A stretch of DNA of 64,000 bases from contig NZ_CP064048.1 in the NCBI RefSeq assembly GCF_020923495.1, positions 2,001,501 through 2,065,500 on the forward strand. The letters run 5' to 3'. Both the position numbers and the translations under genes were made by a program. The DNA comes from Brevibacillus sedimenti (GTDB taxonomy: Bacteria > Bacillota > Bacilli > Brevibacillales > Brevibacillaceae). Shown here piece by piece: positions 11,722 through 29,430 of the stretch. Each line of letters starts with the position of its first letter. Position 1 is the first letter of the stretch. Below the pieces are notes generated by a model. It did no database searches, had not been told where the DNA came from, and worked only from the letters and a program-made list of their open reading frames with translations.

Positions 11722-11908
11722 TGAGCTATCGAGAAGAAGGGAGGGTCCCGCGGCAGGCGGCTCGGGACGCTCCGCTTCGATCGTCAGACGAAAAAGGCTC
11801 CCGGCTGGCTGTCCTGCTATTTCGCTGTGGCTCGGCCGATGATGTGCGGACGGTTTGGCCAGACAGCCCGGGAGGGGAGAAACATGGACAGAAGGCGAGG
11901 CAACAGTC

Positions 11909-13219: not shown

Positions 13220-14206
13220 ACCGATTGTAGGCATTACGATGGGCGATGCCGCCGGGATCGGTCCGGAAATTATTGTAAAGGCACTGGCAGATCCGGCTGT
13301 CTATCAGATGTGCCGGCCGCTTGTCATCGGCGACGCGAAAATGTTGGAGCGCGCCAACCGCATCACGGGAGCCGGGTTGTCCGTGAGCCGGGTCAGTGAT
13401 GCGGGCACGGCGAAGTACGAACACGGCGTGATCGACTGCCTCGACCTTGACCTGCTGCCGGAAGACCTGCCGTTTGGACAGGTATCCGCCCAGGCCGGGG
13501 ACGCCGCGTTTCGCTTCCTGGAAAAGGCGATCGACCTGGCGAAATCCGGGGAGATCGACGCCATCTGCACGGCGCCGCTCAACAAGGAAGCGCTGCACAA
13601 GGGCGGGCACATCTACCCGGGTCACACGGAAATACTTGCGGAGCTGACCAATACCAAGGATGTGTCCATGATGCTGTCCGCTCCCAAACTGAGAGTGATC
13701 CATGTGACGACCCACGTGGGGCTGATCGATGCGGTGAACATGATTACGCCGGAGCGGGTCTACAAAGTCATCGTCATGGCTCATGAGACCTTGAAGAAGG
13801 CGGGGATCTCCCCCCGAAGATAGCCGTTTGCGGAATCAACCCGCACGCGGGCGAAAACGGGTTGTTCGGATACGGTGAAGAAGAGGAAAAAGTGGTGCCC
13901 GCGGTGCGGCAGGCGCAGCAGGAGGGCATTGACGTGGTGGGACCGCTCCCGGCTGACACCCTCTTTTTCCGCGCGACGCGGGGAGACTTCGACATTGTCG
14001 TCGCGATGTATCACGATCAGGGACACGGCCCTGTCAAGGTGCTCGGCCTGGAAGCCGGGGTGAACATTACCGTCGGACTTCCGATTATCCGCACCAGTGT
14101 CGATCACGGCACAGCGTTCGATATTGCCGGAAAAGGCGTGGCTGACGAGCTGAGCATGAAAGAGGCGATCCGTCAGGCGGTCGAACTGGCGCCGAAACGG
14201 GCGTAA
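13212..14206 (+). pseudogene. pdxA2: 4-phospho-D-threonate/D-erythronate dehydrogenase PdxA2-type, frameshifted at a C tract
   Basis: The first frame (13212-13823) encodes the N-terminal two thirds of a PdxA-type dehydrogenase: GITMGDAAGIGPEI, ICTAPLNKEALHKGGH, GHTEILAELT. It ends with a TAG just after a run of six C at 13810-13815. The rest ([44 protein letters not shown]) continues in another frame to 14206. One additional C would restore [16 protein letters not shown] and a 331-residue protein, the normal PdxA length. It is therefore either a one-base sequencing or assembly error in a homopolymer or a very recent inactivation. The ATG overlaps the kinase stop. Expected role: oxidative decarboxylation of the kinase product to dihydroxyacetone phosphate. 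Confidence 0.85.
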
Positions 14207-15899: not shown

Positions 15900-15978
15900 T
15901 GAAAGCGCTTTAATAAAAGGATTGACAAGGGTTTGATGGGAATACTATCATGATCATAAGAATTGGATCCAATATCCA
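15900..15978 (+). promoter_or_regulatory. Promoter region of the MaoC-dctPQM unit: cre-like site, -35/-10 and GntR-type operator
   Basis: TGAAAGCGCTTTAA (15900-15913) is cre-like, with one mismatch near its end. TTGACA (15922-15927) and TATCAT (15946-15951) form a promoter with an 18-base spacer. The palindromic ATTGGATCCAATATCCA (15962-15978) lies immediately downstream, well placed for repression. The same operator sequence recurs at 20361. Confidence 0.65.
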
Positions 15979-16002: not shown

Positions 16003-16530
16003 ATGAGCATACAGGAAGGATGGACAGGGCGGTTTTACGAGGATTTCGAGGTGGGGGACGTGTATCCCCATCCGCTCGGCCGGACCGTGACGCAGACGGA
16101 CAACATCTGGTTCACCCTGCTGACACAGAACACCAATCCCATCCACTTTGACGCCGAGTACGCGGCCAGGACCGATTTTGGGCGGCCGCTGGTGGACTCC
16201 ACGTTTACGCTGGCGCTGGTCACCGGCCAATCGGTGGCGGACGTCTCGCAGAACGTGATGGCCAATCTCGGCTGGGACGACGTGCGGCTTCCCGCCCCCG
16301 TCTTTGAAGGTGACACCATCTACTCGTACAGCGAGGTGTTGGAGAAGCGGGAGTCCAAGTCCCGCCCCCACGTCGGCATCGTCAAGGTGAAAACGGTTGG
16401 CTACAACCAGCGCGACGAGGTGGTCATCCAGTTTACCCGCACCTTCATGGTGTACAAGCGCGGTCACGGTCCCGAATCGGTCAGCGAACGGGTCCGGCGC
16501 GTGCGGAATCAGGTGTTGAAGCAGGAGTAG
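16003..16530 (+). CDS. MaoC-family (hot-dog) enoyl-CoA-type hydratase
   Basis: A 175-residue single hot-dog protein. The start FEVGDVYPHPLGRTVTQTDN and the hydratase motif TNPIHFDAEYAARTDFGRPLV (Asp and His of the catalytic pair) are seen. Relatives of this size are usually assigned to C5-acyl-CoA hydration or dehydration, for example mesaconyl-CoA or itaconyl-CoA. A (R)-enoyl-CoA hydratase role is also possible. It leads the TRAP transporter genes and shares their operator. With a CoA ligase and a CitE-like lyase in the same regulon, hydration of an unsaturated C5-CoA to citramalyl-CoA is a reasonable inference, not a demonstrated one. Confidence 0.8.
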   Translation: MSIQEGWTGRFYEDFEVGDVYPHPLGRTVTQTDNIWFTLLTQNTNPIHFDAEYAARTDFGRPLVDSTFTLALVTGQSVADVSQNVMANLGWDDVRLPAPVFEGDTIYSYSEVLEKRESKSRPHVGIVKVKTVGYNQRDEVVIQFTRTFMVYKRGHGPESVSERVRRVRNQVLKQE

Positions 16531-16671
16531 CCTTGGCGCAAATCGTGATGGTTCGCAGGAGACAGCGGATACATCGGGGAAAGCAGGTCGTCCGCGAAAA
16601 TTTTTCGGAATTTTCAGTATTAACGAACGTCAGGTTGGAAAGCGATCCATACCAAAAAAGGGGGTCTTCGC

Positions 16672-17694
16672 ATGAAAAGAGGTTGGCACGCATGGATGGC
16701 AGGCTGTCTCGCTGCACTGCTGCTGACAGCGGCGGGATGCGGCGGTTCCAAGCCGCAGGACAGTAACGCCTACACGAAAGAGAATCCGCTGATCGTCAAG
16801 TTCTCTCACGTCACCACGGCTGATAGTCCAAAGGGCAAGGCCGCGAACAGGTTCGCCGAACTGCTGGCGGAAAAGACCGGCGGCAGGGTAAAGGTGGAAG
16901 TATATCCGTCTTCCCAACTGTACGGCGACAAGGACGAACTGGAAGCGCTGCAGGCGGGGAACGTCCATGTCATCGCTCCTTCGGCGACGAAGCTGGTCGG
17001 CTTCAACCCTTCCTTCCAGATTGTCGACATGCCGTTCCTCTTTAAAAACCACGAGGCGGTCATCAAATTCTGGGACGGGGAGCTGGGCAAAAAGCTGATG
17101 AATTCCCTGGAAAGCAAAAATCTGCAGGGGCTGGCCATGTGGGAAAACGGGTTTAAAGTGTTCACCTCCACCAAACCGATTGCCAAGCCGGAAGATTTCA
17201 ACGGGCAAAAATTCCGCACGCAGGCGGGCAAGGTGCTGGAAGCGCAGTTCAAGGCGCTGGGAGCGGGGGCCGCAACCATTCCGTTCGGGGAAACCTACAC
17301 CGCCCTGCAGCAGGGAACGGTGGACGGCCAGGAAAACACCTGGAACAACATCGACACGCAGAAGTACGAGGAAGTGCAAAAGTACCTGCTGGTGTCCAAC
17401 CACGGGCGGATCGACTACATCGTCCTGACCAACAAGCAGTGGTACAGCGCCCTGCCCGAAGACATCCGCAAGGCCTTCGACGAATCGATGGCGGAAGCGA
17501 CCGCATACGAGCGGGAGCTGGCCGTCCAGTTGGACAAAGGCTCCGAAGAGAAGCTGCGCGGCTCCGGTAAAATGCAGGTGATCGATCTCAGCGAAGCGGA
17601 ACGGGAAAACTTCGTCAAAGCAATGGAAGCGCTCTACAGCGAGTTTGAAAAGACGATCGGCAAGGAGTTTATCGACGGCGCCCGTCAGCTGTAA
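16672..17694 (+). CDS. dctP: TRAP transporter substrate-binding lipoprotein, DctP family
   Basis: A 340-residue extracytoplasmic binding protein. The signal peptide ends in a lipobox LTAAGC with the lipidated Cys23. The DctP core includes IVKFSHVTTADSPKGKAA, the MPFLFKN segment and GQKFRTQ, whose Arg normally pairs with the substrate carboxylate. It should deliver a carboxylate to the DctQ-DctM permease encoded next. The ATG follows an AAAAGGGGG site. A different DctP-type protein (35808-36857) is encoded beside a two-component system and has no QM partner. Confidence 0.92.
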   Translation: MKRGWHAWMAGCLAALLLTAAGCGGSKPQDSNAYTKENPLIVKFSHVTTADSPKGKAANRFAELLAEKTGGRVKVEVYPSSQLYGDKDELEALQAGNVHVIAPSATKLVGFNPSFQIVDMPFLFKNHEAVIKFWDGELGKKLMNSLESKNLQGLAMWENGFKVFTSTKPIAKPEDFNGQKFRTQAGKVLEAQFKALGAGAATIPFGETYTALQQGTVDGQENTWNNIDTQKYEEVQKYLLVSNHGRIDYIVLTNKQWYSALPEDIRKAFDESMAEATAYERELAVQLDKGSEEKLRGSGKMQVIDLSEAERENFVKAMEALYSEFEKTIGKEFIDGARQL

Positions 17695-17789
17695 CGACCG
17701 CGGGCGGCTTTCAAGAAACAGACGGGGCACCGTTTCCGCCGGGGACCGGTGCCTTGGGGGAACCAACCAAACCGGGGAGGTTGAAAGTG

Positions 17790-18281
17790 ATGTCCAAATG
17801 GCGGGAACGGTATGCCGCTTTTGAAGATTGTCTCGCCGGCTCGCTGATCGTGATCGGCGTTGCCTTGATTTTCTATGGAGTGGTGTGCCGCTACTTGTTT
17901 AACAGCCCGAAAGCGTGGGTCGACGAAATTTCCACCTACTTCGTCGTCTGGGGAACGCTGATCGGCTCGGCGGTTGCCTTGAGGGAAGGGCATCACATCC
18001 AGGTGGACGTCCTGTACGACCGCCTGCCTTCCTCCCTCCAGAAGGCGTGCAACGTGTTTGCCAATGCGCTTGGCGTTCTCTTCTGCCTCTGTTTCATCTT
18101 TTTCGGCGGCAAACTGCTGGCGCTCTACTGGAAGACGCAGCAGCAGTCCACCGATGTGGGGATTTTCCTCTGGATCGTCTATCTGGTGATCCCGCTCAGC
18201 GGACTGATGCTGGGCTACCGATTCCTTGACAACCTGCTGGCCAGCCTGAAACAAGAGGTGAAGATCGAGTGGAATGGATAG
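17790..18281 (+). CDS. dctQ: TRAP transporter small permease, DctQ family
   Basis: A 163-residue membrane protein with four hydrophobic helices. The family motif KAWVDEISTYFVVWGTLIGSAVALREGHHI is present. The start at ATG 17790 (or GTG 17787) follows GGGGAGG; the longer frame from 17754 runs through this site and is rejected. The stop overlaps dctM by 13 bases, indicating coupled translation. The protein forms the small membrane subunit of the Na+-driven TRAP complex. Confidence 0.9.
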   Translation: MSKWRERYAAFEDCLAGSLIVIGVALIFYGVVCRYLFNSPKAWVDEISTYFVVWGTLIGSAVALREGHHIQVDVLYDRLPSSLQKACNVFANALGVLFCLCFIFFGGKLLALYWKTQQQSTDVGIFLWIVYLVIPLSGLMLGYRFLDNLLASLKQEVKIEWNG

Positions 18282-19543
18282 TGTTTCTCGTCTTTTTTCT
18301 GCTGCTGCTCCTGCGGGTTCCGGTGGCGGTCTCGCTGGTGGTGTCGGCCGCGCTCGCGCTCATGGACAGCGGGTTCAACCTGGACGTGCTGCCGCAAAAA
18401 ATCTTTTCGTCGCTCAACGTTTCCACGCTGATGGCCATCCCCGGCTTTATTCTCGCCGGCGTCCTGATGGCGCGCGGCGGCATCTCCAAAGCGCTGATCG
18501 ACGCGCTCAGGGCGTGGGTGGGCCATTTTTCCGGCGGGCTGTCCGTCGTCACCGTTCTCGCCTGTGCGGTCTTTGCCGCCATCTCCGGTTCCAGTCCGGC
18601 GACCGCCGCCGCCATCGGAGCGATCATGATCCCGGGAATGGTGGAGGCCGGGTACAGCAAGCGATACGCGATGGGCCTCGTGGCCGCCTCCGGCACGCTG
18701 GGGATTCTCATCCCGCCGTCCATTCCGCTGATCGTGTACGGAACGGTGGCCGAGGAGTCCATCGGCAAGCTGTTTATGGCCGGGTTTTTGCCGGGACTGT
18801 TTCTGACTGCCGTCCTCGTGGTGGTGGCCATCGTGTACGCCCGCTGGAAAAACTTCGGCCGCCTGCCGAAAGCGAGCTGGCACGACCGCTTCGTCTTGAG
18901 TGTCAGGGCACTTCCCGCCGCACTGCTGCCGCTCTTGATCCTCGGCTCCATCTACAAGGGGATCGCGACGCCGACGGAAGCCTCCGTGGTCGCCTGCGTC
19001 TACTCCCTGCTCGTCGCCGTGTTCGTCTACCGCCAGATCACGTGGAAGGACGCGCGGACGATCCTGCGGGAGACGGTCAACACCAGTTCGATGGTGTTCT
19101 TCATCATCGCCGGCGCCACCGTCTTCGGCCTGTACCTGACCAATGAGCAGGTTCCGCAAAACATCGCCGCCTGGATCATGGAAGGCGACATCAACAAATG
19201 GACGTTTTTGATCGCGTGCAACATCCTGTTCTTCATCATGGGCATGTTCCTGGAGCCGACCTCCATCATCCTGATCACCCTGCCGATCTTCCTGCCGATT
19301 TTGAAGCTGCTGGGGATCGACGTCATTCACTTTGCAATCATCATGACCGTAAACATGGAATTGGGGATGGTGACGCCTCCTGTCGGCCTGAACCTGTTTG
19401 TGGTCAGCGGCATCGCCAGGGCCAAGCTGGAAGAGGTGGTCAGGGGGATCATGCCGTTTATCGCCCTGATGATCCTCGTCCTGGTCGTCATTGTCGTCTG
19501 GCCGCAGCTCTCGCTCTGGCTGCCGGTGCAGATGGCCAACTGA
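18269..19543 (+). CDS. dctM: TRAP transporter large permease, DctM family
   Basis: A 424-residue transport subunit with about 12 membrane segments. The blocks ALRAWVGHFSGGLSVVTVLACAVFAAISGSSPATAAAIGAIM and ASGTLGILIPPSIPLIVYG are characteristic, as is VTPPVGLNLFVVSGIA near the C-terminus. It starts with GTG inside the end of dctQ. Together with DctP and DctQ it makes a complete TRAP system, probably for the substrate degraded by the downstream operon. Confidence 0.93.
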   Translation: MEWIVFLVFFLLLLLRVPVAVSLVVSAALALMDSGFNLDVLPQKIFSSLNVSTLMAIPGFILAGVLMARGGISKALIDALRAWVGHFSGGLSVVTVLACAVFAAISGSSPATAAAIGAIMIPGMVEAGYSKRYAMGLVAASGTLGILIPPSIPLIVYGTVAEESIGKLFMAGFLPGLFLTAVLVVVAIVYARWKNFGRLPKASWHDRFVLSVRALPAALLPLLILGSIYKGIATPTEASVVACVYSLLVAVFVYRQITWKDARTILRETVNTSSMVFFIIAGATVFGLYLTNEQVPQNIAAWIMEGDINKWTFLIACNILFFIMGMFLEPTSIILITLPIFLPILKLLGIDVIHFAIIMTVNMELGMVTPPVGLNLFVVSGIARAKLEEVVRGIMPFIALMILVLVVIVVWPQLSLWLPVQMAN

Positions 19544-19639
19544 GCGGGAATTGACTGGAAGCGGCCGATTCTGTAAAAATGGGAGATAGTTGCCAACAGG
19601 CGTACGGGAAAAGCACACGATTGTCAGGAGGATACACCC

Positions 19640-20305
19640 ATGAAGCGAAGCCACTTGCGATTACATGACCGTTCCACGCTGCTTGAGCGGGTCGTCTCCC
19701 GTCTAAGGGAAGCGATTCTCAGGCGGGAGTTTCAGCCGGGGGAACGGCTCGTGCAGGAGGAGCTGGCCGAAGCCATGGGCGTCAGCCGGATGCCGGTCCG
19801 GGAGGCGCTGCGCCAACTGGAAAAAGAGGGGCTGGTCACGCTGGAGCCGCACAAGGGAGCCATCGTGACACCGGTGACATCCGATGACATCGAAGAGATT
19901 TACTATCTGCGCTCGGTGTTGGAAGCGATCGCGGTGGAACGCTCCCTGCCCCATCTGACCGATGACGACAAACGGATGCTTGGGCAGTTGGTCGAAGAGA
20001 TGGAGCAGGCCGTCAAACGGGAGGACGCTGAGCAGTTCATCGCGAAAAACGCCGAATTTCACCGTTTGATCCGCAAGGGATGTCGCTGGCGCAGGGCGCA
20101 CATGATCCTGGAGATGCTGTGGCACGGCTTTCCGCCGCACACGCCCGGCATGCTGCCGGGGCAGATGGAGCGGTCGCAGGCCGAGCACAAGGAGATGCTG
20201 GAGCTGATCGAATCAGGTGATGCCAAGCGGCTGTCCGAAGTGATCCGCAAACACATCTTGCGTACGGGGGAAGCGTTTAAGGAACACCTGGCGCAGGACA
20301 AGTAA
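19640..20305 (+). CDS. GntR-family transcriptional regulator, FCD subfamily
   Basis: A 221-residue regulator. The winged HTH is at about residues 12-75 (LVQEELAEAMGVSRMPVREALRQLEKEGLV), followed by an all-helical FCD ligand domain (DIEEIYYLRSVLEAIAVERS). FCD proteins usually bind a carboxylate and release DNA. It lies between two transcription units that both carry the palindrome ATTGGATCCAATATCCA, so it is the best candidate for their repressor. No copy of the palindrome was found directly upstream of its own start; an AGGAGGATACACCC site precedes the ATG. Confidence 0.9.
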   Translation: MKRSHLRLHDRSTLLERVVSRLREAILRREFQPGERLVQEELAEAMGVSRMPVREALRQLEKEGLVTLEPHKGAIVTPVTSDDIEEIYYLRSVLEAIAVERSLPHLTDDDKRMLGQLVEEMEQAVKREDAEQFIAKNAEFHRLIRKGCRWRRAHMILEMLWHGFPPHTPGMLPGQMERSQAEHKEMLELIESGDAKRLSEVIRKHILRTGEAFKEHLAQDK

Positions 20306-20360
20306 CCGAGCGATACATGTGTGGGGATTGTTTTTTCAATCCTTCACAATTTTTCTTTGC

Positions 20361-20383
20361 ATTGGATCCAATATCCAATATCC
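20361..20383 (+). promoter_or_regulatory. Putative GntR-type operator upstream of the ligase-SDH-fumarase-lyase operon
   Basis: ATTGGATCCAATATCCA, identical to the 15962 site, plus a further overlapping repeat AATATCC. It lies 27 bases before the ATG at 20410. The recurrence upstream of two separate units is the strongest evidence for a local regulon. Confidence 0.7.
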
Positions 20384-20409
20384 GAGTTGAGCCAGAGGAG
20401 GAGCTTGTA

Positions 20410-21630
20410 ATGGGAAAGGTTTTGGAACATCACAGCAAACGGTTGATTCGTCAGGTTGGCGTCCCGACGCCGGAACACTGGGTGGCGGACACCGCCGCGG
20501 AGGCGGAAGCAATCGCCAAACGATTCGGCAAGCCGGTGGTGCTGAAAGCGCTGGTCCCGGTCGGGAAGCGGGGCAAGGCGGGGGCCGTCACCTTTGCAAA
20601 GACGCCGGAAGAAGCGAGAGAGCGGGCCCGGGAACTCTTGGGCATGACGGTCAGCCACTTTCCGGTCGACAAGATCCTGGTCGAGGAAATGCTGGAGATT
20701 GCCAAGGAACTGTACGTCTCCATCACCATTGACAAGCAGAAACAACTGCCGGTGATCATCGCCTCGACCGAAGGGGGCGTGGAGGTGGAAGAGCTGGTGG
20801 CCGAGCATCCCGACAAGGTGGTGATCGAGCACGTCGATCCGCTGACGGGGCTGGCCGACTACAAGACGAGAGAGGTGTGGAGCCGCCTCGGCTTAAACGG
20901 CAGGGAACTGCTGCAGGCGAGCGACGTCCTCGCCAGGCTGTACGCCGCTTTTCTCCGCTACGACTGCCAACTGCTGGAGATCAATCCGCTCGCCGTCACC
21001 GCACAGGGCTCGCTGGTGGCCGCCGCATCGGTGATGGCCGTCGACGACGCCGCGATGTTTCGGCAGAAGGGGCTGGAGGGGCTGGTCGAAGTGGGCGGCG
21101 AACGGGCGTGGCGTCCGCTGACGGAGCTGGAAAAGCGAATGATCGCCGTGAATGACGCCGATTACCGGGGGACCGCCCGCTACACGGAGATGGACGGCGG
21201 GGATATCGGCTTCATGTGCGGCGGCGGCGGGGGCAGCCTGCTCAGCTTTGACGCGCTGGTCGACCTGGGCGGCCGGCCGGCCAACTACTCGGAAACGGGT
21301 GGCAATCCCCCGGAAGAAAAAGTGTACGGCCTGACCAGAGGAATCCTCTCCAAGCCCGGCGTCAAAGGGCTGTTTGTCGCCCACAACATCACCAACAACA
21401 CGCAGATCGACGTAATGGCCCGGGGGATCGTACGCGCGTTGGCCGACATGGGCATCGATCCCCGGACGTTTCCCGTCGTCGTGCGGGAAGCGGGCGTCAA
21501 CGACGCGCTGGGCAGACAGATATTTACCGAGGCGGGCGTGGAGTACTACGGCGAAGAGGTGACGATTTGCGAAGCGGCAGCTGCGATGATCGCGCGTATG
21601 CAGTCCGCCTATCCGGACTTGTACGCGTAA
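20410..21630 (+). CDS. Acyl-CoA ligase beta subunit (SucC/MtkA-like, ATP-grasp)
   Basis: A 406-residue ATP-grasp protein. The N-terminus starts with KVLEHHSKRLIRQVGVPTPEHW, followed by the nucleotide-binding KPVVLKALVPVGKRGKAGAV block. The C-terminal ligase-CoA domain includes NYSETGGNPPEEKVYGLTRGIL. The ATG at 20410 has an AGAGGAGGAGC site; the longer frame crosses the operator. It pairs with the next gene as succinyl-CoA synthetase or malate-CoA ligase. Because it sits with a CitE-like lyase and not with 2-oxoglutarate dehydrogenase, a malate-, citramalate- or itaconate-CoA ligase is more likely than the housekeeping enzyme. The substrate cannot be read from sequence. Confidence 0.85.
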   Translation: MGKVLEHHSKRLIRQVGVPTPEHWVADTAAEAEAIAKRFGKPVVLKALVPVGKRGKAGAVTFAKTPEEARERARELLGMTVSHFPVDKILVEEMLEIAKELYVSITIDKQKQLPVIIASTEGGVEVEELVAEHPDKVVIEHVDPLTGLADYKTREVWSRLGLNGRELLQASDVLARLYAAFLRYDCQLLEINPLAVTAQGSLVAAASVMAVDDAAMFRQKGLEGLVEVGGERAWRPLTELEKRMIAVNDADYRGTARYTEMDGGDIGFMCGGGGGSLLSFDALVDLGGRPANYSETGGNPPEEKVYGLTRGILSKPGVKGLFVAHNITNNTQIDVMARGIVRALADMGIDPRTFPVVVREAGVNDALGRQIFTEAGVEYYGEEVTICEAAAAMIARMQSAYPDLYA

Positions 21631-21655
21631 AACGGGAAAACGAGGAGGAGAGAGT

Positions 21656-22567
21656 ATGGCCATTTTGATAGACAAGCGCACGCGCATTGTCATCCAGGGA
21701 ATCACCGGGCGGGAAGCGACGATGGTGACCCGCCACACGCTCGATTACGGCACCAACGTTGTGGCCGGGGTGACGCCGGGGAAAAAGGGGCAGCACGTGC
21801 ACGGGGTTCCCGTGTACAACACGGTGCGGGAAGCGGTTGACGCCCATCAGGCGGACACCAGCCTGGTTGTCGTGCCGCCCGCCTTTGCGCTGGATGCCGT
21901 GCGGGAAGCGATCGACAACGGCATCAAGGTGATCGTGGTGACGACGGAGAACATTCCGCAGCTGGACACGGTCAAGATGCTTCACCTCGCCAGGCAGAAC
22001 GGCGTCCGGATCATCGGCCCCAACACGGTGGGCATGATCAACCCGAAAGACCGGGTGAAGCTGGGCTCGATCGGCGGCGACAACCCCGACCGCTGCTTCG
22101 TGCCGGGGCATGTCGGCGTGATCTCCCGCAGCGGCGGGATGACGGCGGAAACGTCGTGGATGGTAAAGCGGGCCGGATTTGGCGTCAGCACCAGCGTGGG
22201 CATCGGCGGCGACGCGCTGATCGGCACGACGATCCGCGACCTGCTGGAATTGTTCGAACGAGACCCGGATACGCATGCGGTCGTGACGTTTTCCGAACCG
22301 GGCACGACGTTTGAGGAAGAGGCGGCCGAGTTCGTCAAAAGCGGCGGCTTTCGCAAACCGCTGATTTCCTTCATCGCCGGGCGGTTTACAGAGCGGATGC
22401 CGGAGGGAACGGTGTTCGGCCATGCCGGGGCACTGATCTCCGGCAAAGTGGGACGCCCGTCCGGCAAGGCGCAAAAGTTGCGGGAGGCGGGGGCCCACGT
22501 GGTGGAGCGATACGATGATTTGATCGAGGTCCTGCAATCCGTATTGGCGGCAAAGGAGGCGAAGTAA
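21656..22567 (+). CDS. Acyl-CoA ligase alpha subunit (SucD/MtkB-like)
   Basis: A 303-residue subunit with an N-terminal CoA-binding fold (IVIQGITGREATMVTRHTLDYGTNVVAGVTPGKKG). The phosphohistidine loop is FGHAGALISG, and GPNTVGMINP is also present. It forms the ADP-forming ligase with the preceding beta subunit, 25 bases upstream. Compared with housekeeping SucD, the neighbourhood points to a dedicated dicarboxylate activator. Translation is served by an AGGAGGAGAG site. The stop is followed directly by the next ATG. Confidence 0.87.
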   Translation: MAILIDKRTRIVIQGITGREATMVTRHTLDYGTNVVAGVTPGKKGQHVHGVPVYNTVREAVDAHQADTSLVVVPPAFALDAVREAIDNGIKVIVVTTENIPQLDTVKMLHLARQNGVRIIGPNTVGMINPKDRVKLGSIGGDNPDRCFVPGHVGVISRSGGMTAETSWMVKRAGFGVSTSVGIGGDALIGTTIRDLLELFERDPDTHAVVTFSEPGTTFEEEAAEFVKSGGFRKPLISFIAGRFTERMPEGTVFGHAGALISGKVGRPSGKAQKLREAGAHVVERYDDLIEVLQSVLAAKEAK

Positions 22568-23920
22568 ATGTCACTGAGCAGACAACTGGCCGGTTTTATC
22601 GCCTGGACCCGCTATGAAGACCTGCCGGCGGAGACGGTGGCGTTCACCAAACTGTGCATCCTGGACTGGCTCGGCTCCGCGCTGGCCGGCGCGGCCAAAC
22701 CGCCGGTGCGGATGATTGACGAGCTGGCGAGGGAGTTGGGGGGGAGCGGACAGGCGACGTTGGTCACCGGCGGCAGGTCGTCGGTCGCCAACGCGGCACT
22801 GGTCAACGGAGCCGCCTCTCACGTCGTTGAACTGGACGACATCCACAAGCAGTCGATCATTCACGCCGCCACCGTCGTCATCCCGGCGGCGCTGGCCGTT
22901 GCCGAGTGGCTGAACAGAAGCGGCAAAGAACTGATCGCGGCGGTCGCGGTCGGCTACGACGTCTGTTTCCGCGTCGGCGAGGCGGTCAGCCCGTCCCACT
23001 ACCGTTTCTGGCACAACACCGCCACCTGCGGCACGTTTGGCGCAGCAGCGGCAGCGGCCTCCCTGCTTCGACTGGACGAGGAGCAGATCGTCCACGCGCT
23101 GGGCAATGCGGGGACGCAGGCGGCGGGACTGTGGGAGTTTATCGTCGACGGTGCGATGTCCAAACAGCTTCACACCGGCAAAGCGGCGATGAACGGGCTT
23201 TTGGCCGCCCTGTTGGCGCAAAAAGGGTTTACCGGCCCCTCCCGCATCCTCGAAGGGGAGCGCGGCTTTTTCCGGGCGATGGCGGAAACCGTTGACGAGT
23301 CGCGGATTACCGACCGGCTGGGGGAGCATTTCAAAATTACAGAAAATTCATTCAAGATTCACGCTTCCTGCCGCCATACCCATCCCGCCGTCGATCTCGC
23401 CCTCAAGCTGCGTCAACAGTCCGGCATCCGTACGGAGGAGTTGCGCCGAATCCGGGTGGGCGGCTATCGGTCGGTGCTGGCGATCACCGACAATCCCGAC
23501 CCGCAGACCGTGTACGCGGCCAAGTTCAGCCTGCAGTTCTGCGTCGCGCTCGCCCTCGTCAAGGGCAGGGCGGGACTGGCCGACTTCAGCGGGGAGACGC
23601 TGCACGATCCGGCAGTCCGCTCACTGATGGAGCGGGTGGAGCTGACGCTTGACCCCGACGTGGATGCCGCTTATCCGGAGCGGTGGGGATCCAGCATGGA
23701 AGCGGAGACAGTGGCGGGAGAAGTGCTGCGCCTCGTGGCTGATTACCCGAAGGGGGACCCGGAAAACCCGGTGACGGCTGCGGAATTGACGGATAAGTTC
23801 CACGACCTGGCCGCCCATTTGCCCGAGGACACAAGGCGAAGCTACCTGGAGACGATCCTGCACCTGGAAACGATCGCGGACGTCGGCCGATTTTGGGACG
23901 AAAGGAGCCGCGTGTCGTGA
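22568..23920 (+). CDS. MmgE/PrpD family protein
   Basis: A 450-residue member of the family that includes 2-methylcitrate dehydratase and cis-aconitate decarboxylase. Seen features are the N-terminal LSRQLAGFIAWTRYEDLPAETV, the block LVNGAASHVVELDDIHKQSIIHAATVVIPAALAVAE, and HASCRHTHPAVDLAL. No residue pattern seen here distinguishes dehydratase from decarboxylase. A housekeeping propionate role is not supported, as no methylcitrate synthase or lyase is nearby. Within a C4/C5-dicarboxylate operon, dehydration of a hydroxy-tricarboxylate or formation of itaconate are both open options. The stop overlaps sdhC by four bases. Confidence 0.83.
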   Translation: MSLSRQLAGFIAWTRYEDLPAETVAFTKLCILDWLGSALAGAAKPPVRMIDELARELGGSGQATLVTGGRSSVANAALVNGAASHVVELDDIHKQSIIHAATVVIPAALAVAEWLNRSGKELIAAVAVGYDVCFRVGEAVSPSHYRFWHNTATCGTFGAAAAAASLLRLDEEQIVHALGNAGTQAAGLWEFIVDGAMSKQLHTGKAAMNGLLAALLAQKGFTGPSRILEGERGFFRAMAETVDESRITDRLGEHFKITENSFKIHASCRHTHPAVDLALKLRQQSGIRTEELRRIRVGGYRSVLAITDNPDPQTVYAAKFSLQFCVALALVKGRAGLADFSGETLHDPAVRSLMERVELTLDPDVDAAYPERWGSSMEAETVAGEVLRLVADYPKGDPENPVTAAELTDKFHDLAAHLPEDTRRSYLETILHLETIADVGRFWDERSRVS

Positions 23921-24534
23921 ACGAACTGTCCACCCGCCGCTTCCTTCTCGCCCGGCTGCACTCCCTGACCGGACTTGTGCCGCTCGGCCTGTTTTTGCTG
24001 GAACACCTCTACTCCAACGCCATCGCCTTGATGGGACAGGAGGCGTACGACCGGCATGTCCAGACGTTGTCGGGCATCCCCTTTCTGCCGGTCGTCGAGG
24101 TGCTGTTCATCGCGCTGCCGCTCTTGTATCACGCGGTGTACGGCATCTACATCGGGATGATGGCGAAAGTCAATCCGTACCGCTATGCCTACCGGCAGAA
24201 CTGGCTGTTCGTCGCGCAGCGGGTGAGCGGGGGGATCACGCTGGTGTTTGTGCTCTACCACATTTGGGCGTTTCGCCTCTCCAGCCTGCTGTTTGATGCG
24301 CCCGTCAACTACGAGGCTGTCCAGGCCCATCTGCAAAACCCGTTCATTTTTGCCTTTTACGTGCTGGGTGTGGTCGCCACCACGTTTCACTTTTCCAACG
24401 GATTGTGGACCGGTTTGATTACCTGGGGAATCACCGTCGGCCCGCGGGGGCAGCGGATTTCCTCGGTCCTGCGTACGCTCTTGTTCGCCGGCCTGTGCGG
24501 CGTCGGGGTGGGGGCGCTGATCGCATTTTGGTAA
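23917..24534 (+). CDS. sdhC: Succinate dehydrogenase cytochrome b558 subunit (Bacillus type)
   Basis: A 205-residue membrane anchor with five hydrophobic helices and several conserved histidines (RLHSLTG, EHLYSN, LYHAVYG, FHFSNGLW) suited to two b haems. It matches the single-anchor Bacillus type, which has no separate sdhD. The GTG at 23917 follows AAAGGAGC and overlaps the MmgE/PrpD stop; the longer frame lies inside that gene. It would link the flavoprotein to the menaquinone pool. Its place inside a catabolic operon suggests a paralogue of the housekeeping SDH. Confidence 0.9.
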   Translation: MNELSTRRFLLARLHSLTGLVPLGLFLLEHLYSNAIALMGQEAYDRHVQTLSGIPFLPVVEVLFIALPLLYHAVYGIYIGMMAKVNPYRYAYRQNWLFVAQRVSGGITLVFVLYHIWAFRLSSLLFDAPVNYEAVQAHLQNPFIFAFYVLGVVATTFHFSNGLWTGLITWGITVGPRGQRISSVLRTLLFAGLCGVGVGALIAFW

Positions 24535-24550
24535 GAAGGGAGGATGTGTC

Positions 24551-26347
24551 ATGAACGAAAGCATCATCGTCGTCGGCGGCGGACTGGCCGGCCTGATGAG
24601 CGTGATCAAGATTGCGGAAGCGGGAGGAACGGTCAAGCTCTTTTCTGTCGTGCCGGTCCGCCGCTCCCACTCCGTCTGCGCGCAGGGGGGCATCAACGGC
24701 GCGGTGAATACGAAAGGGGAAGGCGACTCCGCCTGGGAACACTTTGACGACACGATTTACGGGGGAGACTTTTTGGCCCATCAGCCGCCGGTTAAAGCGA
24801 TGTGCGAGGCGGCACCGGAGATCATCTACCTCTTGGACCGGATGGGTGTGCCATTCAACCGCACGCCGGAAGGGCTGATCGACTTCCGCCGGCTCGGCGG
24901 GGCCAAGTATTCCCGCACCGCCTTTGCCGGCGCCACCACCGGCCAGCAGATTCTCTACGCCCTGGATGAGCAGGTGCGCCGCTTCGAATCGGAAGGGCGG
25001 GTGGAAAAGTTTGAATATTGGGAAATGCTTTCCCTCATCCTCGATGACGAAGGGGTCTGTCGAGGCATCGTCGCTCAGGATCTCAAGTCGATGGAGATCA
25101 AGGAGTTCCCCGCCGATGCGGTAATCCTGGCGACCGGCGGCATCGGTATGATTTTCCGGAAGAGCACCAACTCGCTGATCAACACCGGCAGTGCCCACAG
25201 CATCGCCTACCAGCAGGGGGTGCATTACGCCAACGGCGAGTTCATCCAGATTCATCCGACCGCCATCCCCGGCGACGACAAGCTGCGGCTGATGTCGGAA
25301 TCGGCGCGCGGGGAGGGAGGGCGCATCTGGGTCTACAAAGACGGCAAGCCGTGGTACTTTCTGGAGGAAAAGTACCCGGCATACGGCAACCTGGTGCCGC
25401 GGGACATCGCCACGCGGGAGATTTTCCACGTCTGCGTCGACCTGAAACTGGGCATCAACGGAGAGAACATGGTCTACCTCGACGTGTCCCACCTGCCAAA
25501 GCGGCAGTTGGAGCAGAAGCTGGGCGGCATTCTCAGCATCTACGAGAAGTTTGTCGGCGACGATCCGCGCAAGGTGCCGATGAAGATTTTCCCCGCGATG
25601 CACTACTCCATGGGCGGTCTGTGGGTGGATTACAACCAGATGACCAACATCCCCGGCCTGTTCGCCTGCGGCGAGTGCGAATTTCAATACCACGGCGCCA
25701 ACCGGCTGGGGGCCAATTCGCTGGTGTCGGCGATCTACGGCGGGATGGTGGCGGGGCCGAAAGCGGTCGAGTACGTCCGCGGCCTGAAGAAGTCGGCCCA
25801 GGACCTGTCGCCCAACCTGTTCGCCGCCGAGCGCAGGCGGCAGGAAGCGTACATGGAGCGCATCTGCCGGATGGACGGCTACGAGAACCCGTACCAGCTC
25901 TATGTGGAGATGAGCGACTGGATGGTGGACAACGTAACCGTGGTCCGCTACAACGACCGCCTGCAAAAAACGGACGAGAAGCTGCAGGAGCTGCTGGAGC
26001 GCTGGCAGAAGATCGGCGTGGACGATACCTCCGACTGGTACAACCGGACGGTGACGTTTGTCCGCCAGTTGTGGAACATGCTGCAGTTGGCCCGGGTGAT
26101 CACGCTGGGAGCGCTCCACCGCAACGAGAGCAGGGGCGCTCATTACAAGCCGGAGTTTCCCGAGCGCGACGACGCCAACTGGCTGAAGACAACGCTCGCC
26201 ATCTACACGCCGGAGGGGCCGCTTTTCCGCTACGAACCGGTCGATCTCGCCTACATCCAGCCGCGCCCCCGGCGCTATGACATCGTGAAGGAAGCGGCGG
26301 ACCGGGCATCCGACCGGGGCTCCGCGGCCGCCCGTCAACAGGCTTAG
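24551..26347 (+). CDS. sdhA: Succinate dehydrogenase / fumarate reductase flavoprotein subunit
   Basis: A 598-residue flavoprotein. FAD-binding GGGLAGLMSVIKIAEAGG opens the protein. The covalent-flavin region includes RRSHSVCAQGGINGAVNTKGEGDSAWEHFDDT, with the catalytic-site blocks HPTAIPGDDKL, SARGEGGRIW and HYSMGGLWVD. The length and the ALDEQVRRFE region agree with Bacillus SdhA. It could oxidise succinate or, if specialised, methylsuccinate to mesaconate. It lies 16 bases after sdhC with a GGGAGG site. Confidence 0.93.
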   Translation: MNESIIVVGGGLAGLMSVIKIAEAGGTVKLFSVVPVRRSHSVCAQGGINGAVNTKGEGDSAWEHFDDTIYGGDFLAHQPPVKAMCEAAPEIIYLLDRMGVPFNRTPEGLIDFRRLGGAKYSRTAFAGATTGQQILYALDEQVRRFESEGRVEKFEYWEMLSLILDDEGVCRGIVAQDLKSMEIKEFPADAVILATGGIGMIFRKSTNSLINTGSAHSIAYQQGVHYANGEFIQIHPTAIPGDDKLRLMSESARGEGGRIWVYKDGKPWYFLEEKYPAYGNLVPRDIATREIFHVCVDLKLGINGENMVYLDVSHLPKRQLEQKLGGILSIYEKFVGDDPRKVPMKIFPAMHYSMGGLWVDYNQMTNIPGLFACGECEFQYHGANRLGANSLVSAIYGGMVAGPKAVEYVRGLKKSAQDLSPNLFAAERRRQEAYMERICRMDGYENPYQLYVEMSDWMVDNVTVVRYNDRLQKTDEKLQELLERWQKIGVDDTSDWYNRTVTFVRQLWNMLQLARVITLGALHRNESRGAHYKPEFPERDDANWLKTTLAIYTPEGPLFRYEPVDLAYIQPRPRRYDIVKEAADRASDRGSAAARQQA

Positions 26348-26363
26348 AGAGGAGGGTGCCGGG

Positions 26364-27107
26364 ATGAACACGGTGCAGATGAAGGTAAAGCGGCAGGACC
26401 AGCCGGACGGCGAACCGTACTGGGAGGAGTTTGTCGTCCCGTACCGGCCGAACATGAACGTGATCGCCGCGTTGATGGAGATTCAAAAGAACCCGGTGAA
26501 TGCGGCGGGCCGACAAGTGAGGGCCGTCGTCTGGGAGTCCAACTGTCTGGAAGAGGTGTGCGGAGCGTGCAGCATGGTGATCAACGGCAGGGTCAGGCAG
26601 GCGTGCTCCGCTTTGGTCGACAAGCTGGAACAGCCGATCTGCCTGGAGCCGATGGCCACGTTTCCCGTCGAAAAAGACCTGGCGGTGAACCGCAAGCGAA
26701 TGTTTGACGCGCTGCAGAGCATCAAGGGCTGGATCGCAATCGACGGCACCCACGCCCTGGGCCCGGGACCGCGTGTCTCGCAGGAGCAACAGCAGGAGCT
26801 GTACGCGTATGCCACCTGCATGACCTGCGGCTGCTGTCTGGAGGCTTGTCCGAACGTCAACGACCGCTCCCCCTATCTCGGGCCGCAGGCGATGGCGCAG
26901 ATCCGCTATTTCAACGCCCATCCCACCGGGGCGATGATGAAGGAACAGCGCCTGGACGCAGCGATCAGCGACGGGGGGATCGCCAACTGCGGCCAATCGC
27001 AAAACTGCGTCCAGGTCTGCCCCAAAGGGATTCCGCTGACCACGGCCCTGGCTGAAGTAAATCGGGATGCCAACCGGCATGCCTGGAAGAGGTGGTTTTT
27101 CTCATGA
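26364..27107 (+). CDS. sdhB: Succinate dehydrogenase / fumarate reductase iron-sulfur subunit
   Basis: A 247-residue Fe-S subunit. The N-terminal ferredoxin-like domain has CLEEVCGACSMVINGRVRQAC for the [2Fe-2S] centre. The C-terminal domain has CMTCGCCLEACP and CGQSQNCVQVCPKGIP for the [4Fe-4S] and [3Fe-4S]-type centres. It transfers electrons from SdhA to the haem anchor. Seventeen bases separate it from sdhA. Its TGA overlaps the ATG of the next gene (ATGA), which ties the SDH genes to the fumarase genes in one operon. Confidence 0.93.
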   Translation: MNTVQMKVKRQDQPDGEPYWEEFVVPYRPNMNVIAALMEIQKNPVNAAGRQVRAVVWESNCLEEVCGACSMVINGRVRQACSALVDKLEQPICLEPMATFPVEKDLAVNRKRMFDALQSIKGWIAIDGTHALGPGPRVSQEQQQELYAYATCMTCGCCLEACPNVNDRSPYLGPQAMAQIRYFNAHPTGAMMKEQRLDAAISDGGIANCGQSQNCVQVCPKGIPLTTALAEVNRDANRHAWKRWFFS

Positions 27108-27946
27108 GAGAAATCAAGTATGACGCCATTGTGGAGGCAGTGGCTGACATGTGCCAGCGGGCCAACTACGACCTCGGCGCGGATGTCGTCCAGGCGTTCC
27201 GGCAGGCGCTTCGTTCGGAAGTGTCGGAGACAGGCCGGGACGTGCTGTCACAGTTGATGGAAAACGCACAGATCGCCGCCCGGGAACGGGTGCCGATGTG
27301 CCAGGATACCGGCGTTGCCGTCTTTCTCGTGGAAGTGGGGCAGGACTGCCGGATCGTCGGCGGCAGCCTGTACGACGCGATCAACGACGGGGTGCGCAAG
27401 GGATACAGAGAGGGGTATCTGCGCAGTTCCATCGTCGGTCACCCGCTGGAACGGGTCAATACAGGAGACAACGCTCCCGCCGTCACGCACGTGGAACTGG
27501 TGCCGGGCGACAAACTGACCATCCACTTCTCCGCCAAGGGCGGCGGCAGCGAAAACATGAGCGCGCTCAAAATGCTGAAGCCGTCCGATGGGGTGGAGGG
27601 GGTCAAAGCGTTTGTACTGGAGACGGCGCGGAACGCGGGTCCCAACGCCTGCCCGCCGATGGTCGTCGGCGTGGGCATCGGCGGAACATTTGAAAAGGCG
27701 GCCTACCTGGCGAAGAAGTCTCTGTTTCGGCCCATCGGCGAGCGCAGCCCCCGGCCGGAAATCGCCGTACTGGAGGAGGAACTGGTGGAGATGTGCAACA
27801 AACTGGGAATCGGCCCGCAGGGAATGGGCGGCCGGACGACGGTACTGGACGTCAAGATCGAGATTTACCCCTGTCACATCGCCTCCCTGCCCGTTGCCGT
27901 CAACATCAACTGCCACGCCAGCCGGCACAAGGAAGCCGTACTGTGA
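27104..27946 (+). CDS. Class I fumarase/tartrate-type hydro-lyase, alpha subunit
   Basis: A 280-residue Fe-S hydro-lyase subunit. Cys66 (PMCQDTG), Cys183 (NACPP) and Cys257 (YPCH) are placed as the three ligands of a [4Fe-4S] cluster. The block SAKGGGSENMSALKMLKPSDG and GIGGTFEKAAYLAKK are typical. The ATG at 27104 overlaps the sdhB stop; the upstream GTG in the same frame is rejected. Enzymes of this type hydrate fumarate, mesaconate or dehydrate tartrate. The neighbouring SDH and CoA ligase fit fumarate to malate or mesaconate to citramalate. Confidence 0.88.
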   Translation: MREIKYDAIVEAVADMCQRANYDLGADVVQAFRQALRSEVSETGRDVLSQLMENAQIAARERVPMCQDTGVAVFLVEVGQDCRIVGGSLYDAINDGVRKGYREGYLRSSIVGHPLERVNTGDNAPAVTHVELVPGDKLTIHFSAKGGGSENMSALKMLKPSDGVEGVKAFVLETARNAGPNACPPMVVGVGIGGTFEKAAYLAKKSLFRPIGERSPRPEIAVLEEELVEMCNKLGIGPQGMGGRTTVLDVKIEIYPCHIASLPVAVNINCHASRHKEAVL

Positions 27947-27985
27947 AACGGAGCAAGATAGCCAACCGGGAGGAGGAGCAACACG

Positions 27986-28558
27986 ATGGCAGTCAAACAC
28001 ATTACTGCCCCGTTGACGGATGAGGCGGTGGCCAGCCTGCGGGCGGGCGACCGGGTGCTGATCAGCGGCGTGGTCTACGCGGCGCGGGACGCCGCCCACA
28101 AGCGCATGATCGAAGCGTTGGATCGCGGAGAGCCGCTCCCGTTTGACGTCAGCGGGCAGGTGATCTACTACGTCGGTCCAACTCCGGCCAAACCGGGGCA
28201 GGTGGTCGGCTCGGCCGGCCCGACGACGAGCGGCCGCATGGACAAATACGCGCCCAGGCTGCTCGCGCTGGGGTTAAAAGGGATGATCGGCAAAGGCTAT
28301 CGCAATCAGGAAGTAAAAGAGGCGATGGCGAAACACAAGGCGGTTTACTTTGCGGCGGTAGGCGGCGCGGGCGCGCTGCTGGCGAAAGCAATCAAGGTGC
28401 AGGAGCTGGTGGCCTACGAAGACCTCGGCCCGGAAGCGGTGCGCAAGCTGGTGATCGAGCAGTTTCCGGCCGTGGTGATCAACGATATGTACGGCAATGA
28501 CCTGTACCGGCAGGGCGTGGAACAGTACCGGGAAGAGTGGGGAGGGGGCGGAAGATGA
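27986..28558 (+). CDS. Class I fumarase/tartrate-type hydro-lyase, beta subunit
   Basis: A 190-residue protein corresponding to the C-terminal swivelling domain of class I fumarases. The motif AARDAAHKRMIEAL and the substrate-binding YYVGPTPAKPGQVVGSAGPTTSGRMD are seen, followed by GLKGMIGKGYRN. It must combine with the alpha subunit to be active. An unusually good GGGAGGAGGAGC site precedes the ATG. Its stop overlaps the CitE-like gene (ATGA). Confidence 0.88.
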   Translation: MAVKHITAPLTDEAVASLRAGDRVLISGVVYAARDAAHKRMIEALDRGEPLPFDVSGQVIYYVGPTPAKPGQVVGSAGPTTSGRMDKYAPRLLALGLKGMIGKGYRNQEVKEAMAKHKAVYFAAVGGAGALLAKAIKVQELVAYEDLGPEAVRKLVIEQFPAVVINDMYGNDLYRQGVEQYREEWGGGGR

Positions 28559-29430
28559 CGCTGGTTCGTTCGTGGATGTTTGTGCCGGGCAACAACCGGC
28601 GGCGGCTGGAAAAGGTGAGGGAGCTGGCGGCTGACGTGATCATTTACGATTTGGAAGACGCCGTGCCGCTTCAGGAAAAAGCGAGCGCACGGGACATGGT
28701 GCGCCAGGCGGTACAAGAAAACGGCAGCCGTCCCCAATACGTGCGGGTGAATGACCCGACCACGCCGTTTTACCTGGACGACCTATACGGCATGATCGGG
28801 CACGGACTGACGGGAATCGTTTTGCCAAAAGCGGCAAACCGTCAGCAGATTCTGGCTGTGGAAGCCCACCTGACGCAGCTGGAGAATCACGGGAATCTGC
28901 CGTGCGGCTCGATGGAGATCGTCCCCCTGATTGAAACGGCGTCTGGTCTCTACCACGCCTATGACATCGCCTCGGCTAGCGCCAGGGTGAAGCGGCTGGC
29001 GTTCGGTTCGGTCGACTTTGCCCTCGATATCGGCGCCCGGCTGACGCGGGAAGGAACGGAACTTTTGTTTGCCCGCTCCCAGTTGGTGGTGATCTCCCGG
29101 GCAGCCGGCATCGAACCGCCGATTGACGCCGTTTTCGTGGACGTCAAAGATGCGGAGGGACTGCAAAATGATGCCCGCCTTGCGAGACAGCTCGGTTTTC
29201 AGGGCAAGCTGGTGATCCATCCCGACCAGATCCCGATTGTCCATGACGCGTTTTCCCCGACGGCGGAGGAAATAGCGGAGGCGAAAGCGGTCGCCGCCGC
29301 CTTTGACGAAGCGCTCGCTTCCGGCAGCGCCGCCATTTCTGTCAACGGAAAACTGGTCGACTACCCCGTGGCGGAGCGGGCCAAGCGGATCCTCCGGCAG
29401 GCGGAAGCGCTCCAGCACCTCCGCACTTGA
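28555..29430 (+). CDS. CitE/HpcH-family acyl-CoA lyase (malyl-CoA / citramalyl-CoA lyase-like)
   Basis: A 291-residue TIM-barrel lyase. Family motifs are SWMFVPGNNRRRLEK, IIYDLEDAVPLQEK, YVRVNDP, IVLPKAA, the metal-ligand Glu in LIETASGLYHAYDI, GSVDFALDIGARL and GKLVIHPDQIPIVHDAFSPT. It lacks other citrate lyase subunits nearby, so a free-standing acyl-CoA lyase is expected. Cleavage of malyl-CoA would give glyoxylate plus acetyl-CoA; cleavage of citramalyl-CoA would give pyruvate plus acetyl-CoA. The ATG overlaps the previous stop. It is the last gene of the nine-gene operon. Confidence 0.88.
   Translation: MTLVRSWMFVPGNNRRRLEKVRELAADVIIYDLEDAVPLQEKASARDMVRQAVQENGSRPQYVRVNDPTTPFYLDDLYGMIGHGLTGIVLPKAANRQQILAVEAHLTQLENHGNLPCGSMEIVPLIETASGLYHAYDIASASARVKRLAFGSVDFALDIGARLTREGTELLFARSQLVVISRAAGIEPPIDAVFVDVKDAEGLQNDARLARQLGFQGKLVIHPDQIPIVHDAFSPTAEEIAEAKAVAAAFDEALASGSAAISVNGKLVDYPVAERAKRILRQAEALQHLRT

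Follow-up and report, generated by a model that had tools for sequence, protein, structure and literature searches.

Why should a bacterium that already has a complete succinate dehydrogenase (SDH) carry a second one, packed among genes for a two-subunit coenzyme A (CoA) ligase, a fumarase and a CitE-like lyase? The question is raised by 14 genes at positions 16003-29430 of a 64,000-nucleotide stretch of the Brevibacillus sedimenti genome (contig NZ_CP064048.1, positions 2,001,501 to 2,065,500 of the forward strand; hereafter the window), all on the + strand and running from a MaoC hydratase to the lyase. Very probably, they form a private catabolic operon for methylsuccinate (2-methylsuccinate), which would probably also serve mesaconate and citramalate, and perhaps itaconate, the substrate, direction and stereochemistry of every step being predicted from sequence. 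In the proposed route, a TRAP transporter would import the acid and an MmgE/PrpD protein would convert the (S) and (R) forms of methylsuccinate into each other and so make both available to the dehydrogenase, a step that would be needed if the dehydrogenase is stereoselective. The dedicated complex II (sdhCAB) would then oxidise free methylsuccinate to mesaconate and pass the electrons to quinone, a class I fumarase would hydrate mesaconate to (S)-citramalate, the ligase would convert this with ATP to (S)-citramalyl-CoA, and the lyase would split citramalyl-CoA into pyruvate and acetyl-CoA. A further entry at citramalyl-CoA could be provided by the MaoC protein, acting on itaconyl-CoA or mesaconyl-C4-CoA. 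The features are as follows, ~ marking starts chosen among in-frame start codons.

15922-15951, + strand: promoter-like site TTGACA-18-TATCAT ahead of the MaoC gene (found by pattern matching only, 11 of 12 letters agreeing with the consensus)
16003-16530, + strand: MaoC-type hydratase, RipB/Ich-like, candidate itaconyl-CoA or mesaconyl-C4-CoA hydratase (best NCBIfam model NF038241, RipB_Ich)
16672-17694, + strand: TRAP solute-binding protein DctP (PF03480, 345 bits)
17754-18281, + strand: TRAP small permease DctQ (PF04290)
18269-19543, + strand: TRAP large permease DctM (PF06808; TIGR00786 above cut-off)
19640-20305, + strand: GntR/FCD transcription regulator (PF00392 and PF07729)
~20410-21630, + strand: ligase beta subunit (ATP-grasp), proposed (S)-citramalate-CoA ligase (PDB matches 3ufx and 6hxq)
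21656-22567, + strand: ligase alpha subunit, CoA-binding, with the GHAGA histidine retained (aligned with the host SucD)
22568-23920, + strand: MmgE/PrpD family protein, proposed (S)-(R)-methylsuccinate isomerase (PA0881-type likeness)
~23917-24534, + strand: SdhC, b558-type membrane anchor (TIGR02046, 137.9 bits against a cut-off of 96)
24551-26347, + strand: SdhA flavoprotein, proposed methylsuccinate dehydrogenase subunit, Leu115 (NF006392, 1073.1 against 855)
26364-27107, + strand: SdhB iron-sulfur subunit (NF006391, 403.8 against 244)
~27104-27946, + strand: class I fumarase alpha subunit, proposed mesaconase (PF05681; NF004885, 422.9 against 276)
27986-28558, + strand: class I fumarase beta subunit (PF05683; NF005310, 286.8 against 238)
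~28555-29430, + strand: CitE/HpcH-family lyase, proposed (S)-citramalyl-CoA lyase (PF03328)

Each gene is an open reading frame, and the MaoC-TRAP unit and the nine adjacent genes from 20410 named in the original prediction were all found as open frames on the + strand. These nine genes are tightly packed, with intergenic gaps of at most 39 bases or overlaps; for the ligase beta subunit, the mechanically called start at 20317 is probably too early, most relatives aligning from 20410. The order is unlikely to be due to chance because the whole of it recurs in Brevibacillus massiliensis (L007), with parts or variants across Bacillota, as a comparison of gene order across genomes showed.

The operon's sdh, suc and fumarase set is additional to the housekeeping set. 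The host genome (3.93 Mb, one contig) contains a second complete sdhCAB (L002), whose SdhA, SdhB and SdhC are 74%, 67% and 45% identical to the operon copies, a second sucCD (L005; 35% and 41% identity of SucC and SucD to the operon ligase subunits) and a fused class I fumarase (L077; 29% and 36% identical to the operon subunits). The idea of a dedicated pathway with a private SDH, which the original prediction had put forward and would have given up had these been the only sdh and suc genes in the genome, thus withstands this check. A housekeeping SdhA, 71-75% identical to the cluster SdhA, is present in all 39 genomes of the family, and the cluster type in seven of them (that of the window and six at 81-91% identity). 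Among 26 genomes reached through related loci, 18 had an SdhA of at least 60% identity in the cluster, and 17 of these 18, all but the genome of L049, had a second high-scoring SdhA (>900 bits). The operon MmgE/PrpD is the only match to its family in the host genome at E 0.001, and the sole other host match to the lyase family is partial. Genome-wide, the host has no close homologue of the Pseudomonas aeruginosa methylsuccinyl-CoA dehydrogenase (Mcd, PA0879; best match 36% identical) or itaconate CoA-transferase (Ict, PA0882; best match 30%), and neither Ict nor Mcd had a match within the window at E 1e-8.

The most informative gene of the operon is the one to which the original prediction had given no role, namely mmgE/prpD, one of the nine packed genes. 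In the sections of PMC12290011 on the purified protein, P. aeruginosa PA0881, also an MmgE/PrpD protein, is an (S)-(R)-methylsuccinate isomerase (Msi), the other acids tested giving no detectable activity and none being detected with cis- or trans-aconitate. As its counterpart for comparison, we used the MmgE of a P. aeruginosa plasmid cluster (L081: MaoC, acyl-CoA dehydrogenase, VOC, MmgE/PrpD, CaiB, lyase and TRAP), the genes of which were equated with PA0878-PA0886 by gene order and names. Over 417 positions, the window protein and this PA0881-type protein share 48.7% identity, and the latter gave the highest bit score with the window protein among the best 40 of 738 matching plasmid records. 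BLAST scores of the window protein were 369 bits with the L081 copy, 160 with iminodisuccinate epimerase, 136 with Bacillus subtilis IRG1 and 100 with cis-aconitate decarboxylase. The seven catalytic-site letters, HEHYHKK (His, Glu, His, Tyr, His, Lys, Lys), are identical in the window protein and the L081 copy; the second of them, Glu in both, is Asp in iminodisuccinate epimerase, IRG1 and cis-aconitate decarboxylase. In a tree of 46 rows, from which near-duplicates had been removed beforehand, the window and PA0881 types fall in one larger clade of 35 rows (100/98), outside of which stand a second MmgE of Bacillaceae, iminodisuccinate epimerase, IRG1 and cis-aconitate decarboxylase. The window gene adjoins sdhC, not Mcd, and MmgE proteins of 66-67% identity occur in Bacilli clusters with Mcd. 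Taken together, the window protein is likely a methylsuccinate isomerase. The Glu/Asp difference does not by itself single out Msi and was rejected as sole proof, Glu being present also in proteins of other contexts (L087, L088).

The SDH itself belongs to a lineage of its own. SdhA, SdhB and SdhC all exceed curated cut-offs for the Bacillus-type enzyme (NF006392, TIGR01811, NF006391 and TIGR02046). In an SdhA tree of 61 rows, built after the removal of identical sequences and of L001, which duplicates the window SdhA, the cluster SdhA of Bacilli, whether accompanied by a ligase or by a CoA-transferase, fall into a single 23-row clade (100/100), four cluster SdhA of Desulfosporosinus and kin into a second (100/100) and 31 housekeeping rows into a third (99/96); the cluster rows L136 (Carboxydocella) and L145 (a Clostridia metagenome-assembled genome) and the unlinked L141 lie elsewhere on long branches. 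The Bacilli cluster clade is set apart from housekeeping SdhA by 21 positions, four of which lie in one short stretch, with L115 for F, A118 for T, Y120 for H and S121 for H (window numbering). Through the first of these, the window SdhA lacks the Phe of the RRFGG motif, which we take to line the dicarboxylate site (FrdA F116, SdhA F119); no paper in the open-licence literature searched confirmed this role. PMC10739449 was set aside as a source for this residue, since the Phe119 in the relevant part of that paper belongs to another protein. Position 115 is Leu in all 23 Bacilli cluster rows, all four Desulfosporosinus-type rows and L136, Ala in L145 (locus L049) and Phe in all 31 housekeeping rows, as it is in Escherichia coli FrdA and chain 9lay. 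The cluster SdhA of L154, L158 and L163 read RRLGG (3/3), and a distant SdhA (34-38% identical) found in Desulfovirgula-type loci reads RSLGG in seven of seven. On balance, we lean towards the view that relatives of complex II, of both the Bacillus type and the distant Desulfovirgula type, became dedicated methylsuccinate dehydrogenases more than once, that Leu or Ala would make room for the methyl group, and that a free-acid, respiration-coupled pathway would be interchangeable in evolution with the CoA-ester route.

In sister clusters, homologues of proven enzymes for five-carbon (C5) acids replace single steps, and these replacements support the C5 route. Three genomes of the family (G007, G008 and G009) lack a cluster-type ligase although their cluster-type SdhA lies on a long contig; here, a class III CoA-transferase 55-57% identical to PA0882, the itaconate CoA-transferase, precedes the other genes, and the order CoA-transferase, CitE, MmgE (63-64%), SdhC, SdhA, SdhB, fumarase is the same in all three. 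In a fourth, G033, CitE, MmgE, Sdh and fumarase lie on a short contig, the end of which cuts off the region before CitE. Surveyed from the ligase side, 69 ligase-beta loci in named genomes, many of them on short contigs, included, within ~10 kb, 67 with the alpha subunit, 39 with an MmgE of at least 42% identity, 51 with a CitE homologue and 31 with the fumarase alpha subunit. The 39 loci with MmgE, a set that includes L054 (no SdhA; MmgE in the Asp-type clade), comprised 29 with SdhA (22 of the close type and seven distant), none of which had an Mcd homologue of at least 55% identity. Among the ten without SdhA, three (L016, L028, L029) had Mcd at 61% together with a CoA-transferase match of 35-58%, and seven had neither. 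L031, with Mcd at 61% and no SDH, was left out of the 39, its MmgE lying at the end of the stretch.

A class sample comprised 299 genomes. Window-type MmgE was present at E 1e-120 or better in 17 genomes, for 14 of which the surrounding stretches were examined, the other three (G000, G010, G031) being the window, L123 and L122, which have SDH and no Mcd or Ict match. A cluster SdhA occurred in six of the 17 (window, L123, L122, L154, L158, L163), Mcd at 60-70% in seven (L156, L157, L160, L161, L164, L165, L167) and both together in none. Two of the Mcd loci, L156 and L157 (Bacilli), combine MaoC, Mcd, CoA-transferase, CitE, MmgE and fumarase, with MmgE 66-67% and MaoC 77-81% identical to those of the window (the L157 transferase is in two pieces). 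Fisher tests of SdhA against Mcd gave P-values of 0.013 (39 loci) and 0.035 (17 genomes), the significance of which is overstated, related genomes being treated as independent, and which serve as a guide only; the two samples overlap (G084 is the genome of L060, G031 that of L007), and L158 and L060 are one genome.

Several variants of these clusters were encountered. L160, L161, L165 and L166 have a window-type MmgE with neither a cluster-type ligase nor a CitE homologue in the stretch; the rest of their route may be encoded elsewhere, or they may belong to a different pathway. The Cytobacillus sp. NCCP-133 cluster (L032:13576-14755) has sdhC and sdhB matches with no sdhA between them, and in a Desulfovirgula cluster (L010:13500-17074) an FrhB/FdhB-like protein and a distant SdhAB replace sdhCAB, with a sigma-54 activator nearby. 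Upstream of the ligase, L013 (4795-9203) and its kin in Cytobacillus, Fictibacillus and others carry GntR, CitE (~43%), an Asp-type MmgE (~33%) and a DASS transporter, possibly a second pathway. A fumarate-reductase-like flavoprotein with the motif GHSxPRR (~25% identical to SdhA) is found in many Bacillaceae clusters (L013:16669-18216, L154, L155, L158, L163), often beside fumarase and also in clusters without SDH; in L163 (4809-9008), it adjoins a cluster-type SdhA (81%, RRLGG) with no SdhB or SdhC match.

The ligase beta subunit, the best 120 database matches of which are 63-93% identical, scores below the SucC cut-off (284 against 375.55, TIGR01016) and far below that of malate-CoA ligase (207.4 against 604, NF010647), and the alpha subunit below that of SucD (305.8 against 353.2, TIGR01019). 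The His of its GHAGA motif is the phosphorylated residue in succinyl-CoA synthetase. The best PDB match of the beta subunit is the succinyl-CoA synthetase beta subunit (3ufx) and the second the citryl-CoA synthetase large subunit (6hxq); the latter likeness would fit a citramalate ligase because citrate and citramalate share a tertiary alcohol beside the CH2-carboxylate that is activated. Ligase pairs without MmgE occur in several phyla; those with neither MmgE nor SDH in the stretch (L039, L043, L046-L048, L059, L061, L065, L066, L069), some with CitE only, come from Acetothermia, Bipolaricaulota, Clostridia, Planctomycetes-type, Chloroflexi and Thermomicrobia genomes and perhaps act on other hydroxy acids. 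Both fumarase subunits exceed curated cut-offs (NF004885, TIGR00722, NF005310, TIGR00723), and class I fumarases are reported, in a passage of PMC12290011, to make (S)-citramalate from mesaconate. The lyase resembles CitE, malyl-CoA lyase and RipC and reaches no curated cut-off, with 239.8 against 443.4 for CitE (TIGR01588) and 180.8 against 375 for RipC/Ccl (NF038242), the latter being undiscriminating, as the P. aeruginosa lyase itself scores 157.7. Similarly, MaoC scores 214.6 bits against a cut-off of 340 for NF038241, and its P. aeruginosa counterpart matches no NCBIfam model; MaoC proteins 77-81% identical to that of the window occur in the two Bacilli clusters holding Mcd, CoA-transferase and CitE homologues. 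DctP is 38.6% identical to that of the P. aeruginosa cluster, in which PA0884-PA0886 are described as a likely transporter of branched C5-dicarboxylates in the relevant part of PMC9875883.

Around the operon, a DASS-family anion symporter gene (14419-15888) lies directly upstream, is present in B. massiliensis at 87% and is a possible second importer. A terminator-like site (pattern match only) at its end precedes the promoter-like site at 15922-15951; the whole stretch has ten promoter-like sites, the mean in shuffles being 3.5. A GntR homologue adjoins many related clusters. Further upstream, a pdxA-like gene is split over two reading frames (13212-13823 and 13862-14206, covering Pfam PdxA positions 1-164 and 184-286) and adjoins a four-carbon acid sugar kinase gene (11855-13219).

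A number of observations weigh against a methylsuccinate operon. In the open-licence literature searched, we found no assay of the window's enzymes or of close relatives, and the ligase and lyase both fall short of all curated family cut-offs. As surveyed in the pertinent sections of PMC12290011, the published Msi occurs almost only in Pseudomonadota and always adjoins Mcd. In the 46-row tree, the window MmgE is not nested in the PA0881 clade; the two are separate branches, the branching order of which is unresolved, and their common 35-row clade also has proteins of other contexts, one adjoining tricarballylate-type genes, just as the HEHYHKK letters recur in some proteins of other contexts. 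Leu at position 115 is also found in L141, an unlinked SdhA, and the methylsuccinate-type cluster of its genome (L020) is without SDH; L141 is part of an sdhCAB with no MmgE, ligase or CitE beside it and may be either the missing enzyme of the L020 cluster or a counter-example. Finally, L041 combines a distant SdhA with an Mcd-like match of 33%, which we did not count as an Mcd homologue and which, if counted, would make it the sole locus with both; L163 has the cluster SdhA with no SdhB or SdhC match; and in four of the 17 class genomes (L155, L159, L162, L166) both SdhA and Mcd are absent from the stretch examined, that of L159 beginning at a contig end.

Four other explanations were considered. 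If complex II ran in reverse, it would be a mesaconate (or itaconate) reductase and the cluster would make or respire methylsuccinate under anoxia. Related clusters in Desulfosporosinus, Desulfovirgula and Carboxydocella, genera known as anaerobes, would agree with this, as would a gut bacterium reported to reduce itaconate to methylsuccinate (mentioned in a passage of PMC12290011). We nonetheless regard it as unlikely: the CoA ligase and lyase downstream provide a catabolic outlet, SdhA is above the succinate dehydrogenase cut-off NF006392 (although the SdhC model covers both directions), and it is Mcd, an oxidising enzyme, that occupies the place of an absent SDH.

The original prediction had offered a four-carbon (C4) route alongside the C5 one, that is, succinate to fumarate, malate, malyl-CoA and finally glyoxylate and acetyl-CoA, which would give cells growing on succinate or fumarate a shorter path. 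All the families can use C4 acids, SdhA/B/C and fumarase exceed the SDH and fumarase cut-offs, and, against lyases of known structure, the operon lyase matches malyl-CoA lyases about as well as it does other CitE-type enzymes. Of the two routes, however, it is the C5 one that gains from the PA0881-like MmgE/PrpD and from the C5 enzymes swapped into sister clusters, and the C4 one is disfavoured because an epimerase-type MmgE/PrpD would be of no use with symmetric succinate. The host's other sdhCAB, sucCD and fumarase, the deviation of the cluster SdhA at the RRFGG motif and the distance of the ligase from the malate-CoA ligase cut-off also argue against C4 acids. We consider this route very unlikely, and the malyl-CoA reading was dropped on the MmgE/PrpD, the second sdh/suc copies and the C5 swaps.

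A different 2-substituted succinate, such as 2-ethylsuccinate, could be degraded by the same, generic steps to a longer 2-oxo acid and acetyl-CoA, and the Ala in the cluster SdhA L049/L145 has a side chain smaller than Leu; yet methylsuccinate and itaconate are the proven substrates of the enzymes to which the swapped-in proteins are homologous, which makes this highly improbable. That MmgE/PrpD is a lyase, such as cis-aconitate decarboxylase, by which the operon would make and then degrade itaconate from citrate-derived acids, is hardly credible, for all its family membership and the presence of a tricarballylate-cluster MmgE in the same larger clade: the decarboxylase, rejected as its identity on this score, ranks lowest of the characterised relatives compared, the site letters equal those of PA0881, which showed no detectable activity towards cis- or trans-aconitate (in the sections of PMC12290011 on its substrates), and SDH and fumarase would be left idle.

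The preferred methylsuccinate route can be set beside known systems. The original prediction knew of no comparable assembly; a related itaconate/methylsuccinate cluster, without SDH in the sections of PMC12290011 describing it, has in fact been published for pseudomonads, and a full-text search of open-licence PMC papers (subscription papers being outside its scope) found no SDH-based methylsuccinate pathway. The terms 'succinate dehydrogenase', 'Firmicutes' and 'Bacillota' are absent from the main text of PMC12290011. As laid out in parts of PMC12290011 and PMC9875883, the cluster of P. aeruginosa (PA0878-PA0886) and Cupriavidus necator consists of itaconyl-CoA hydratase (Ich), Mcd, Msi, Ict and (S)-citramalyl-CoA lyase (Ccl), with TRAP in P. 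aeruginosa, and shares with the window an MmgE/PrpD protein (for the window, a proposed isomerase), a MaoC-family hydratase, a CitE-type lyase, TRAP and the proposed end products. There, a CoA-transferase activates methylsuccinate first and an acyl-CoA dehydrogenase then oxidises the CoA ester, whereas in the window complex II would oxidise the free acid before CoA activation, with electrons passing directly to quinone; fumarase lies within the operon, and an ATP-dependent ligase replaces the transferase. The citramalate cluster of Arcobacter butzleri, as presented in the relevant section of PMC2147049, contains no SDH. With the Bacillus-type succinate dehydrogenase (TIGR01811, b558 SdhC), the window enzyme shares families and the order SdhC-SdhA-SdhB, but it is an extra copy of a separate clade, with RRLGG for RRFGG and Ala118/Tyr120/Ser121 for Thr/His/His. 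The window ligase, like succinyl-CoA synthetase, malate-CoA ligase and citryl-CoA synthetase, is a two-subunit ATP-grasp enzyme with GHAGA, but falls under the SucC, SucD and malate-CoA ligase cut-offs. The fumarase is of the same Fe-S hydro-lyase class as enzymes reported to act on mesaconate and is, in the window, two-subunit and built into the operon.

An extra sdhCAB and sucCD are easily annotated as succinate enzymes. If the proposed route is correct, RRLGG, with MmgE/PrpD and CitE encoded next to it, would distinguish a methylsuccinate enzyme from that of the tricarboxylic acid cycle, and the operon would represent a change of specificity in complex II as well as a citramalate-CoA ligase. 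Methylsuccinate use, the isomerase of which has been published almost only from Pseudomonadota, would thereby extend to Bacillota.

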